From contig NZ_JMKI01000026.1 in assembly GCF_000712295.1 (NCBI RefSeq), positions 62,001 to 126,000 of the forward strand: a stretch of 64,000 bases of DNA. Reading direction: 5' to 3'. Every line of letters starts with the position of its first letter. The stretch's first letter is position 1. The position numbers were made by a program, and so were the translations under genes. This document shows positions 8,560 to 12,844 of this stretch, piece after piece. The notes below the pieces were generated by a model, which ran no database searches, was not told where the DNA came from, and saw only the letters and a program-made list of their open reading frames with translations. Source of the DNA: Synergistes jonesii (GTDB lineage: Bacteria; Synergistota; Synergistia; Synergistales; Synergistaceae).

Positions 8560-9306
8560 ATGCGTTTGAATCTATTCAAAGAGAACAACTCTCTCAAGAT
8601 ATTTATCAGACGTCACCGCGCGGACGGCGCGGCGCAGATCGAAAAATGTGAACTTTGCAGGCTTGGACCGAAGGATATTGAAGATACGGCAACTCTTCAC
8701 AACAAAGTCGCGAACGGGCTTTCGCATGAAATATTCGTACCAAGTCCATATGAGGAAATAGAGCGCTTCCTCGGAGGCGAAGGTCTGGCCGTCGGCATAC
8801 GCAGCGGGGACAAACTTGTAGCGGCGCGGACGGTGAAGATGAGCTGCGCGTGGGCGAACGAGGCCGCCGAGGAATACGAGATGGATTTCGGCGCCGACGA
8901 GTTTCCGGCCGTCACCGGCTTCTGCGTCGTCGACTGGGCGTATCGCGGCAACAACGTACAGTATCTGACGCAGTACCTTGTCGAGGACATTGTTTCGAGA
9001 GAACACACTTCGCTCGTGACGACCGTCTCGCCGAAGAACATTTTCAGCTTGAACAACATCCTTGTCTGTAATTTCAGAATCATCGGGCTTAAAGCGGTCT
9101 ACGGCGGCTATCTGCGCTACGTACTTAAAAAAGATTTCAGGCCGTCGCTGCTGCCTATCTGGACGCACGGGCACAGGCAGATTAACATCAGGGACAAGGC
9201 GGCGCAGATAGAAGCGATAGCGGAGGGATACGCCGGTTATAAACTCGTACGCAAACACACGAGCGGCTTTCATATACTATATGCGAAGGTGGCGGCGGAA
9301 GCATAA
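8560..9306 (+). CDS. GNAT-like acetyltransferase, function unknown
   Basis: A 248-residue soluble protein. Residues about 35-200 look like an acyl-CoA N-acyltransferase (GNAT) fold: alternating helices and strands, a central strand FCVVDWAYRGNNVQYLTQYL resembling the region before the acetyl-CoA loop, and a later LNNILVCNFRIIGLK. No classic Q/RxxGxG/A loop is obvious, so the assignment is tentative. The listed ATG is only one base from AAGGGGGA; an in-frame TTG at 8566 is better spaced and may be the real start. It is a single gene between tRNA-Cys and the Trp T-box; nothing in context tells its substrate. Confidence 0.6.
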   Translation: MRLNLFKENNSLKIFIRRHRADGAAQIEKCELCRLGPKDIEDTATLHNKVANGLSHEIFVPSPYEEIERFLGGEGLAVGIRSGDKLVAARTVKMSCAWANEAAEEYEMDFGADEFPAVTGFCVVDWAYRGNNVQYLTQYLVEDIVSREHTSLVTTVSPKNIFSLNNILVCNFRIIGLKAVYGGYLRYVLKKDFRPSLLPIWTHGHRQINIRDKAAQIEAIAEGYAGYKLVRKHTSGFHILYAKVAAEA

Positions 9307-9495: not shown

Positions 9496-9540
9496 CTCGC
9501 ACAAGTTGAATATCAAAACCGATGAGGCGGAGATAAAGTT

Positions 9541-9789
9541 TCCGGATGCGCCTTACAGAGAGCGGGGTTGCTGAGAAACCGCGGGAGATGCTGGGAGACA
9601 AATGGACCGCCGAGGGTGCGCGGAAAAGGGGTATCCTGAGTATGGCGCAACGCAGGCGCAGCGTGAAAGGCGCGGGAGCGTGATAGCGCTCTTCGAGCGG
9701 GCCGTTTGTGCGGCCAATGAGGGTGGCACCGCAGATAAGTGAAAATCTGTCCTTCGATATGAGCGATTCATATCGAAGGACAGTTTTTT
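9541..9789 (+). promoter_or_regulatory. T-box riboswitch, tryptophan specific
   Basis: Stem I shows the AGAGA kink-turn strand (9557-9561) followed by GCGG, which pairs with CCGC (9607-9610) before CGAG. Just 5' of CCGC, in the position of the specifier loop, is AAUGGA, giving a UGG (Trp) specifier at 9603-9605. The T-box itself, AATGAGGGTGGCACCGC, is at 9716-9732; the base after UGG is C, which would pair with a G discriminator, as tRNA-Trp has in bacteria. A strong terminator follows. Uncharged tRNA-Trp binding should stabilise the antiterminator and switch on the transporter operon downstream. Confidence 0.93.
9747..9789 (+). terminator. T-box regulated terminator
   Basis: CTGTCCTTCGATATGA (9747-9762) pairs perfectly with TCATATCGAAGGACAG (9768-9783) around a 5-base loop and is followed by six T. 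This is the terminator that the T-box antiterminator must outcompete. Confidence 0.93.
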
Positions 9790-9828: not shown

Positions 9829-10434
9829 ATGAGAATGAACGGCAAAGAAATTAAGGCGGCAAATGAGAGAACGGTGGCGGCAGAGAAAAAGGCGGCGGGG
9901 GCGGGGCTTTCGGTATCGCAGATTATGCTCGTCGCGCTGCTGCTTGCGTCGGGCGCGGTGATGAAGTTTTTCATCGGATCGATATTTTCGGCGGGCATGA
10001 AGCCGAACTTCATCATCGCGATGTACTGCCTGGCGATACTTCTCGTAAAACCGAAGCTTAAGGATGCGCTCATCATTGGGCTGCTCGCAGGAGCGGTCTG
10101 CCAGTTTTTTCCTGGCACTCCTTACCTTAACTTCCCGAGCGAGGCGGCGGGAGCGGCAGTGATGGCGCTTTTCGTGATGGCCGGGCGCCGCGCCGGCGGG
10201 GCTCTGATGCCCGCGCTGTCGACGTTCGTTTCGACGGTGGTGAGCGGCGGCGTTTTCATGATTCTACTTTACGCACTTTTCTTCTCAGGCGGAAGCAGAG
10301 TTCCGGCCCCTCTTGCGCTATTTCTCGGAATAATCTTCGGCACTGCCGCAGTCAACGCTCTCATCGTGCAGCTCCTCTACCTGCCGGTAGCGGCGGCGAT
10401 GCGCATCCGTGCCGACGTAAAGAAGGAGCACTGA
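9829..10434 (+). CDS. trpP: ECF transporter S component, TrpP-like tryptophan uptake
   Basis: A 201-residue integral membrane protein with about five or six hydrophobic segments after a charged N-terminus of some 30 residues. The GMKPNFIIAMYCLAILL segment (about residue 56) and the LKDALIIGLLAG that follows resemble TrpP, the predicted tryptophan-binding S component of energy-coupling-factor transporters. The Trp-specific T-box immediately upstream supports this substrate independently. Start: ATG 9829 (or 9835) after AAGGACAG. Genes for two ATPases and the T component follow at once, so this is a dedicated (group I style) ECF transporter, whereas the Firmicute TrpP proteins I know of are usually encoded alone. 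Confidence 0.85.
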   Translation: MRMNGKEIKAANERTVAAEKKAAGAGLSVSQIMLVALLLASGAVMKFFIGSIFSAGMKPNFIIAMYCLAILLVKPKLKDALIIGLLAGAVCQFFPGTPYLNFPSEAAGAAVMALFVMAGRRAGGALMPALSTFVSTVVSGGVFMILLYALFFSGGSRVPAPLALFLGIIFGTAAVNALIVQLLYLPVAAAMRIRADVKKEH

Positions 10435-10436
10435 CG

Positions 10437-11273
10437 ATGATTCGCATCGAGAATCTTTCGTTCATCTATGAGGGCAGTGAGAAAAAAGCTCTCAGCTCCC
10501 TTTCGCTGCACATTCCGAAGGGCTCTTTTGCCGGCGTGACCGGCGCAAGCTGTTCAGGCAAGAGCACGCTTCTGCGAGCGGTTGCGGGAATAGTGCCTCA
10601 CTTCATGCGCGGGAGGTTCTTCGGCGCGGTGAAGGTTAACGGCGTCGACACACTTGACACCTCGCCGCAGAAGCTTGCTGCGACAGTCGGTTTCCTCGGC
10701 GAGGATATCGAAAGTCAGATGATCTGCGAAACGGTCGAAGAAGAAATTCTTTTCGGGCTTGAGAACTTCGCCGTTCCGCACGGCGAGATAGAAGGGCGCA
10801 TCGAAAGGGTTATGGAAATGTTTTCGCTCGCGCCGCTGAGGAAAAGAAAAATATCGTCACTCTCCGGCGGTCAGAGACAAAAAACTGCCCTTGCCGCCGT
10901 GATAGCGCTTTCGCCGCAGCTGCTCATACTTGACAATCCTTCGGCGGAGTTGGATCCGGTGGCTACCGAGAGCCTTTACGAAGCGCTTTCAGCTCTCAAT
11001 TCGCGCGGCGTGACGATAGTGACGGCTGAACAGAAGCCGGGAATCCTCTGCCGCTTCGCGACGCATATGACGGTGATGTCCGAGGGTCGCGCGGTACTGA
11101 ACGGCAGCGCGCAGCAGGTGATGGACGAAACGGAGCTTCTGAGGAGCGCCGGCGTCATGCTCCCACGCAGGGCCGAGCTGAGCGGGCGACTCGCCGCCGA
11201 GGGGCTCTACAGAGGAGGAACGCCGCTTAACATACCGAGTGCTGCGGAAATGATAAGGGGAATGGCGCAATGA
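10437..11273 (+). CDS. ECF transporter ATPase with degenerate catalytic residues
   Basis: A 278-residue ABC ATPase of the EcfA/CbiO type. Walker A is GASCSGKST (about residue 38) and the signature LSGGQRQK (about 142) is perfect. However, after Walker B the usual catalytic Glu is replaced: the sequence reads LILDNPSAELDP where family members read DEPTxxLDP, and at the H-loop position it reads TAEQKP rather than an EHD/THD-type motif. Its own ATP site should therefore bind but hydrolyse poorly, while its signature can serve the partner's site. It starts three bases after trpP and overlaps the second ATPase by four bases. Confidence 0.9.
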   Translation: MIRIENLSFIYEGSEKKALSSLSLHIPKGSFAGVTGASCSGKSTLLRAVAGIVPHFMRGRFFGAVKVNGVDTLDTSPQKLAATVGFLGEDIESQMICETVEEEILFGLENFAVPHGEIEGRIERVMEMFSLAPLRKRKISSLSGGQRQKTALAAVIALSPQLLILDNPSAELDPVATESLYEALSALNSRGVTIVTAEQKPGILCRFATHMTVMSEGRAVLNGSAQQVMDETELLRSAGVMLPRRAELSGRLAAEGLYRGGTPLNIPSAAEMIRGMAQ

Positions 11274-12085
11274 AGGTAATCGAATTCAAAAACGTATCCT
11301 ACGGCTGCGGAGAGGGGAATCTTCTGACGGACGTATCGTTCGGCATACAAAAGGGCTCCTTTACCGCGCTCGCCGGAGAAAACGGCGCCGGCAAATCGAC
11401 GCTCTGTCGTTTGGCTGCCGCGCTGCTTCGTCCCGTCAGCGGAGAAGTCATTAGCAACGGCTTAAGCACGTCAAAAGAAAAAACGGCCCGCTTCGCCGCG
11501 TTCACAGGCTTTCTCTTCCAGAATCCCGACCGGCAGATATGCCGTTCGACCGTCCGCGAAGAGATGGCCTTCGGCCTCAAATACACAGCTCTCGGCGGCA
11601 GGGAAGCGGAGCTCGCGCTCTCGGAGACGATCGAAGAGTTCGGCTTCGCGCCTGAGCGGGAGATATTCAGCATGACCCGCGGCGAGCGCCAGATGCTTGC
11701 GCTGGCTTCCGTACTCGTGCGCAAGCCGGAAATACTCGTAGCGGACGAGCCGACGTCCGGACTCGACGCCCGCCAGTACGCCGTCGCCGCCGAGAAGCTC
11801 AAGGAGGCGCGCAGACGCGGCGCTACCGTTCTCATGGTCACGCACGATATGGAACTCGCCGAGGAGACGGCCGACGAAATGCTCGTCGTAGCTGGCGGCA
11901 GAATAACGGCGCACGCGCCAGTAGAGGAGATTTTTTCCGACCGCGCGCTGATGAAAAGATCTTCGCTGCGGCAGACGGAGATACGCGAGATCGCCGCGCT
12001 GCTCGGCGGAGACTTCGCGAAAGCCGCCTCGGCCTACGAGATGGCCGAGATAATAAAAAATAAGCGGAAGAGGATGGTGGCGTAG
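11270..12085 (+). CDS. ECF transporter ATPase, catalytic partner
   Basis: A 271-residue EcfA-type ATPase. It keeps Walker A GENGAGKST (about residue 38), Walker B with DEPTSGLD and an H-loop THD, but its signature is altered: MTRGERQ stands where LSGGQRQ is expected (about residue 139). Paired with the preceding gene product it gives one fully canonical composite site (this Walker A/B plus the partner's LSGGQ) and one degenerate site. The coding region overlaps its neighbour upstream and abuts ecfT downstream. Confidence 0.9.
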   Translation: MKVIEFKNVSYGCGEGNLLTDVSFGIQKGSFTALAGENGAGKSTLCRLAAALLRPVSGEVISNGLSTSKEKTARFAAFTGFLFQNPDRQICRSTVREEMAFGLKYTALGGREAELALSETIEEFGFAPEREIFSMTRGERQMLALASVLVRKPEILVADEPTSGLDARQYAVAAEKLKEARRRGATVLMVTHDMELAEETADEMLVVAGGRITAHAPVEEIFSDRALMKRSSLRQTEIREIAALLGGDFAKAASAYEMAEIIKNKRKRMVA

Positions 12086-12844
12086 ATGGATGGGCTTTTT
12101 GAATGCACCGACAGTGACGGCCTTATATACAGAATCAATCCGTCGGTTAAGTTGATCATCGCGTTCGCCGCGGGCATGTCGGCCTTCGCCGTCAAAAGCG
12201 TCGCCGGAGCGCTCTTCATAGCGGTTCTCACCATCTTAGCGGCGGCGCTTTCCGGCCTCGGCAGAAAAGCCCTGTCTATGGCGCTGCTGCTCGCGAAGAT
12301 ATCGACTCTCCTCTTTCTGATTCAGCTGCTCTGCGCTGGAGGAGGAAATGTGATATTCAGGGCTGGTCCGCTAAGGATAACGGACGAGGGCGTTTTCTTC
12401 TCTCTGCTGATGGTCGCGAAGCTCATCGCGGCGTCGCTGCCCCTTATGCTCGCTCTTTCGGCGACGAAACGCGGCGACCTCGCCAACTCTCTCGTGCAGA
12501 ACTGCCGGCTGCCATACAAATACGCTTTCGCGCTCACGGCGACGCTTAAATTTATACCGGCTCTTGCCGGGGAAATGGCGCAGATCATGGAGGCTCAGCG
12601 CGCCCGCGGCGTGGACTTCGACGTACGCAATCCGCTGAAGAAGGCGGCGCTTGTCGCGCCTCTCTGCCTGCCCCTAATGCTCTCCTGTGTCCGCCGCACG
12701 GAAAACAGCGCGATCGCGGCTCAGCTTCGCGGCTTCGAACTTCGCAGGCGCGACAGCGGATACAAAAAATATCCGATAGGGATAAAGGACGCGTCCGCCG
12801 CAGCGCTCAGCGCCGTCGCGCTCGTTTTCGCGTTTATGCTCTGA
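12086..12844 (+). CDS. ecfT: ECF transporter transmembrane component EcfT
   Basis: A 252-residue membrane protein of the EcfT/CbiQ family. About five hydrophobic segments are visible (for example residues 22-60, 70-90, 105-130 and the C-terminus), and the cytoplasmic coupling region includes the typical Ala-Arg-Gly pattern in EAQRARGVDF (about residue 170) and a second Ala-x-x-Arg-Gly in AAQLRGF (about 210). These coupling helices contact the two ATPases. It begins immediately after the stop of the second ATPase and ends the T-box operon. Confidence 0.92.
   Translation: MDGLFECTDSDGLIYRINPSVKLIIAFAAGMSAFAVKSVAGALFIAVLTILAAALSGLGRKALSMALLLAKISTLLFLIQLLCAGGGNVIFRAGPLRITDEGVFFSLLMVAKLIAASLPLMLALSATKRGDLANSLVQNCRLPYKYAFALTATLKFIPALAGEMAQIMEAQRARGVDFDVRNPLKKAALVAPLCLPLMLSCVRRTENSAIAAQLRGFELRRRDSGYKKYPIGIKDASAAALSAVALVFAFML

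Follow-up and report, generated by a model that had tools for sequence, protein, structure and literature searches.

A four-gene operon of Synergistes jonesii probably encodes a dedicated (group I) ECF importer for tryptophan, controlled by a T-box, in which the two ATP sites of the ATPase pair are unequal and ATP would be hydrolysed at only one of them. The operon occupies positions 9829-12844 of the DNA analysed here (a stretch of 64,000 nucleotides, hereafter the window), and comprises genes for a TrpP-like S-component, the ATPases EcfA1 and EcfA2, and the T component. These genes and the leader RNA upstream of them are:

9513..9757, + strand: T-box leader RNA (RF00230, 75.6 bits, E 1.2e-16, below the gathering score of 93)
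9603-9605, + strand: T-box specifier UGG (Trp), read from the sequence
9720-9732, + strand: T-box core AGGGTGGCACCGC, read from the sequence
9747..9789, + strand: intrinsic terminator hairpin of the T-box attenuator (16-bp stem, 5-nt loop, T6), from the sequence
9829..10434, + strand: EcfS, TrpP-like substrate-binding component, 201 aa (PF17099 TrpP, 39.9 bits, above the cut-off)
10437..11273, + strand: EcfA1, 278 aa (PF00005), with the nucleotide motifs of the degenerate site; Walker A Lys42, Asp166 and LSGGQ kept
11270..12085, + strand: EcfA2, 271 aa (PF00005), with the nucleotide motifs of the canonical site
12086..12844, + strand: EcfT, transmembrane coupling component, 252 aa (PF02361 CbiQ, 103.9 bits, cut-off 25)

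The genes for EcfA1 and EcfA2 overlap by 4 nt, and the presence of four subunits in one operon, with a single S-component, places the system in group I. EcfT carries the EAQRARG and LRGF motifs (alignment of 16 T components). The AlphaFold model of EcfS (pLDDT 78) resembles the S-components PanT, RibU, FolT and ThiT (TM about 0.5-0.63), and its Foldseek matches to solved S-components reach a probability of up to 1.00, yet with E values of 0.09 or worse. The EcfA1 model (pLDDT 91) has CbiO/EcfA as its top structural matches, with Z of about 30-33. The best NCBIfam models, TIGR04520 ECF_ATPase_1 for EcfA1 (178.9 bits) and TIGR04521 ECF_ATPase_2 for EcfA2 (169.6 bits), score below their equivalog cut-offs of 315 and 330, and by this score the two proteins are not equivalogs of the general EcfA1 and EcfA2; their membership of the ECF group is carried by the S and T components, gene order, fold and phylogeny. 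Upstream of the operon, an ORF of 248 aa (8560-9306) has no match in Pfam or NCBIfam.

The earlier note on this DNA had assigned the system to tryptophan, and this assignment gained support from the TrpP family match and the UGG T-box, from which we infer the substrate. In seven relatives, alignment to the T-box model shows the same architecture, and their specifier regions also contain UGG; the T-box core motif precedes the S gene in 50 of 87 loci, which supports reading the operon as a putative tryptophan importer induced by uncharged tRNA-Trp. The Rfam gathering threshold misses the T-box in the window and in most relatives, where lower thresholds detect it; Synergistota leaders score below this threshold of 93 (75.6 in the window, 74-91 in relatives), so that default annotation misses them. 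At family cut-offs, trpA, trpB and trpD are absent from the window's genome (99.85% complete), as well as from one congener, and are present in two other members of its clade (G137 and G138). The window's genome is therefore a predicted tryptophan auxotroph, which would require tryptophan uptake. We found no report of a tryptophan-specific ECF transporter in the open-access literature, and a description may exist elsewhere.

The residues on which the asymmetry of the two ATPases rests are:

10701..10703, + strand: EcfA1 Glu89 at the Q-loop Gln position (alignment; window clade only)
10860..10874, + strand: EcfA1 LSGGQ signature, residues 142-146, belonging to the canonical site (sequence)
10935..10937, + strand: EcfA1 Asn167 at the Walker B catalytic Glu position, in LILDNPSAELD, codon AAT (alignment)
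11031..11033, + strand: EcfA1 Gln199 at the H-loop His position, in VTAEQK (alignment; family-wide)
11672..11689, + strand: EcfA2 signature MTRGER, residues 135-140, partner side of the degenerate site (alignment)
11747..11749, + strand: EcfA2 catalytic Glu160, canonical, in VADEPTSGLD (kept in 84/84)
11843..11845, + strand: EcfA2 H-loop His192, canonical, in VTHD (kept in 84/84)

The Walker B region of EcfA1 reads LLILDNPSAELD, and the motifs described earlier for both proteins (LILDNPS for DEP, TAEQ for the H-loop His and a retained LSGGQ in EcfA1; DEPTSGLD, THD and MTRGER in EcfA2) are all in place. The alignment with other ECF ATPases is ungapped through the Walker B and H-loop of EcfA1, which rules out a catalytic Glu or His at a shifted position; it bears out the loss of the H-loop His and refines it, the aligned residue being Gln199 of TAEQK rather than the Ala. 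A further change, missing from the earlier list, is that of the Q-loop Gln to Glu89 (FLGEDIESQ, vs FQDIDSQ in the family). In the solved CbiO structure 5x40, the position aligned with Asn167 carries a Glu-to-Gln change. Arg137 of EcfA2 occupies the third position of LSGGQ. In standard ABC geometry the nucleotide motifs of one subunit and the signature of its partner form a composite site (PMC7756269), and every change would therefore fall in the same site: judging from the motifs, Asn167, Gln199 and Glu89 of EcfA1 combine with Arg137 of EcfA2 into one degenerate composite site, and the other site (EcfA2 Glu160 and His192 with EcfA1 LSGGQ) appears intact throughout, in agreement with the pairing proposed earlier. 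As Walker A Lys42 and Asp166 are retained in EcfA1, ATP binding at the degenerate site is plausible. The sharing of residues per site, the retention of ATP and one-site cycling are all drawn from established ABC architecture.

This asymmetry is exceptional among ECF importers, as had been suggested. We compared the pair with 112 ATPases of other ECF loci, taken from Synergistota and from 18 genomes of Bacillota, Spirochaetota and Lentisphaerota: all 112 keep the catalytic Glu and the Q-loop Gln, and 111 keep the His, with no H-loop Gln and no Arg or Lys at the third signature position in any of the 112 (Gly in 100, Phe or Tyr in 11, Gln in one). A third-position F or Y is seen in CbiO/YkoD-type ECF ATPases of otherwise canonical appearance. 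The two further ECF modules of the window's genome are canonical, and a general ECF trait, or a trait of the phylum or host, is ruled out by the canonical state of other ECF pairs; the asymmetric pattern belongs to the tryptophan family. Some individual departures were seen elsewhere. The second ATPase of a Treponema non-Trp ECF pair (L205, G197:C25:1-7000, 1396-2274) reads LTLDYTTKK in place of LSGGQ, a second, independent loss of an ECF signature, and a Peptococcaceae EcfA1-type ATPase (L175, G198:C21:15000-22500, 1714-2562) has Asn at the H-loop His (ILITNLIEE) with its other motifs intact. One ECF module of the window's genome (L167, G000:C36:188000-194500) is of CbiM/CbiQ/CbiO type, and is followed by ORFs that by eye resemble LarE, LarB and LarC (nickel-pincer cofactor genes).

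The tryptophan family is broadly distributed. Within Synergistota the S gene was found at the E cut-off in 22 of 188 genomes, one of them (G048) marginal, and an EcfA1 profile run against 84,980 species genomes recovered at least 80 loci, hosted, among the matches listed, by Synergistota, Spirochaetota, Bacillota, Lentisphaerota and one Desulfarculales MAG; the relatives are mostly MAGs, and their host labels carry some uncertainty. The order S-A1-A2-T holds in every locus of sufficient length, and natural EcfA1-EcfA2 fusions occur in two Treponema loci (L096, L113). Family counts refer to distinct loci among the matches listed (90 for EcfA1, 84 for EcfA2), read from alignment columns. EcfA1 has the H-loop Gln and LSGG in 90/90; its Walker B residue is Glu in 86 and Asn in four, and its Q-loop residue Gln in 85, Glu in four and Ala in one (L037, 290-1147, VFADVEAQ, which retains the catalytic Glu). 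EcfA2 has Arg at the third signature position, as well as the Glu, the His and the Q-loop Gln, in 84/84, and odd signatures occur in L060 and L106 (SRSERQ, with Ser at the fourth position, and SRGSRQ). The EcfA1 search had used a peptide pattern allowing Glu or Asn; recruitment bias from this source was set aside by an independent sample recruited through the S-component only, in which 11 strong S hits from 291 Clostridia genomes were followed in 11/11 cases by an EcfA1 with EQK and an EcfA2 with SRG or SKG. Lys also takes the third signature position in three deeper relatives, so the conserved EcfA2 trait is a basic residue there.

Asn at the Walker B position and Glu in the Q-loop of EcfA1 occur in the same four genomes, i.e., the window's, a congener (G172), and G137 and G138 from another genus of the same family, and this sharing across two genera rules out a single-genome accident or sequencing error. 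The changes appear, from their distribution, to be of two ages: EcfA1 His-to-Gln and the basic EcfA2 signature residue (Gly to Arg/Lys) are universal in the family and fixed across at least four phyla, and EcfA1 Glu-to-Asn and Q-loop Gln-to-Glu are seen, among the loci listed, in the four-genome clade of the window only. The earlier expectation of one co-conserved set of four changes within Synergistota consequently does not stand, in that the older pair spans several phyla and Glu-to-Asn is confined to one clade. The description of the degenerate site as dead is most apt for this clade; elsewhere in the family the site is perhaps only impaired.

Among known systems, one of the closest is the group II EcfAA'T module of L. 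delbrueckii (folate/cobalamin; PMC10368641), which shares the S, EcfA1, EcfA2 and T architecture, matching branches in the tree and, for the window's EcfA1 model, Z of about 30-32 to its chains, but which is a shared module with two canonical sites, whereas the window has a dedicated operon with one degenerate site. In that module a single Glu-to-Gln change at either site abolishes both ATPase activity and transport. During turnover, ATP remains at EcfA (EcfA1) and ADP is found at EcfA' (PMC10368641), which can be equated with EcfA2 because 8bms_B is the E171Q chain. The site lost in the window would therefore be the one that goes unhydrolysed there.

Nearest to the family in the joint tree, with long branches and weak nodes, are YkoD-type fused ECF ATPases, picked by sequence pattern only, which presumably serve a thiamin precursor. 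They share with it a Glu before the H-loop residue (EHR vs EQK) and a change at the third signature position of the second ATPase, which is aromatic (LS[FY]GQ) rather than basic; unlike in the window, their first ATPase retains the His, the catalytic Glu and the Q-loop Gln.

Outside the ECF group, TAP1/2, MRP1, CFTR and Pdr5 likewise have a changed Walker B Glu, H-loop and partner signature at one site with the other canonical (in Pdr5 by the same Glu-to-Asn change as in EcfA1; PMC7756269), but their membrane domains are unrelated, and they act as exporters or, in one case, as a channel. The earlier view of such asymmetry as an exporter feature was too narrow, as the fused ATPases of RbsA/NupO-type importers also have one degenerate ATP site (PMC11466899). 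Those are type II importers with a soluble binding protein and have lost the Walker A Lys, which the window's EcfA1 keeps.

The motif changes of the window clade could also stem from relaxed selection, the transporter being on its way to losing its function; the record of the clade offers some material for this. The four genomes group as a single clade (100), whose stem is long (EcfA1 1.18 and EcfA2 1.33 changes per column), three of the four have Cys or Arg in place of the typical Gly at one Walker A position, and G137 and G138 can make tryptophan. Random drift is nevertheless opposed by the sharing of identical changes among four genomes in two genera, and by within-clade dN/dS of about 0.08-0.19 in all four genes (dS being near saturation in the wider pairs), which are under purifying selection. 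EcfA1, at 0.13-0.19, is similar to its partners, which rules out a pseudogene. All four subunits, and not EcfA1 alone, diverged jointly on the stem (identity to others 0.42-0.54, vs 0.64-0.70 among others), the residues of the canonical site are intact, the T-box leader is retained, and the window's genome is itself a predicted auxotroph. These observations point to a machine that was altered but kept, and we regard decay as quite improbable.

A less improbable, though still unlikely, alternative is that the EcfA1 site remains active and hydrolyses slowly throughout the family, the two sites alternating at unequal rates; Gln199 would then position the gamma-phosphate, and the base would be a different residue. 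The catalytic Glu kept in most relatives speaks for this, as do an invariant Asp90 and a near-invariant acidic residue 198 in the Q- and H-loop regions of EcfA1; MRP1, moreover, tolerates His-to-Gln in the H-loop of its canonical NBS2 with wild-type-like transport, and NBS1 tolerates changes at the Glu position (PMC7756269). Given the retained Glu and the tolerance of NBS2, the EcfA1 site of the wider family may be slow or impaired rather than dead, and hydrolysis there may even be the family's rule. The window clade, however, has lost the Glu, the His and the Q-loop Gln together, and its partner signature is changed too. An active EcfA2-EcfA2 dimer, with EcfA1 as a structural or regulatory subunit, would be in keeping with the full set of nucleotide-side catalytic residues in EcfA2 and with the homodimeric CbiO-type ECF modules (5x3x/5x40), but is the most improbable of these alternatives: a homodimer would use the altered signature alone, while the LSGGQ of EcfA1 is conserved in 90/90, and the strict 1:1 synteny at every locus and the two natural A1-A2 fusions favour a 1:1 heterodimer. 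The joint tree places the family's EcfA1 and EcfA2 in one clade each (SH-aLRT 99), on the general-EcfA1 and general-EcfA2 sides respectively.

One-site hydrolysis in the window clade remains our best reading: since a single Glu-to-Gln change kills the L. delbrueckii module, the equivalent loss under selection would imply a one-site cycle, even though most listed relatives keep the EcfA1 Glu. EcfA1 and EcfA2 would pair head to tail as a heterodimer whose two ATP sites are unequal. The canonical site (Walker A/B and Q-/H-loops of EcfA2 with LSGGQ of EcfA1) would hydrolyse ATP and power each cycle, and the degenerate site (Walker A/B of EcfA1 with the TRGE signature of EcfA2) would bind ATP with little or no hydrolysis in the window's lineage, acting as an ATP-held contact. 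Binding of ATP would close the dimer and expel the empty S-component, and hydrolysis at the single active site would reopen it. Such a cycle is without experimental precedent in the ECF literature compared. It is possible, and we offer it only tentatively, that the whole subfamily, across at least four phyla, has been asymmetric ever since it arose, the EcfA1 site serving as an ATP latch and the EcfA2 site as the sole motor, and that loss of the first site went to completion in the window clade.

The degenerate-site design is already known in exporters and in RbsA/NupO importers; its occurrence in an ECF importer appears new, as we found no report of it in the open-access literature, and an earlier description elsewhere is possible. 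If the reading is true, the design of CFTR, TAP, MRP1 and Pdr5 would extend to ECF importers, and this importer would offer a ready-made system that separates ATP binding from hydrolysis in the release and re-docking of the S-component. The window clade would then represent a natural ECF importer without one working site, maintained under selection, in which one hydrolysis event per cycle can suffice.
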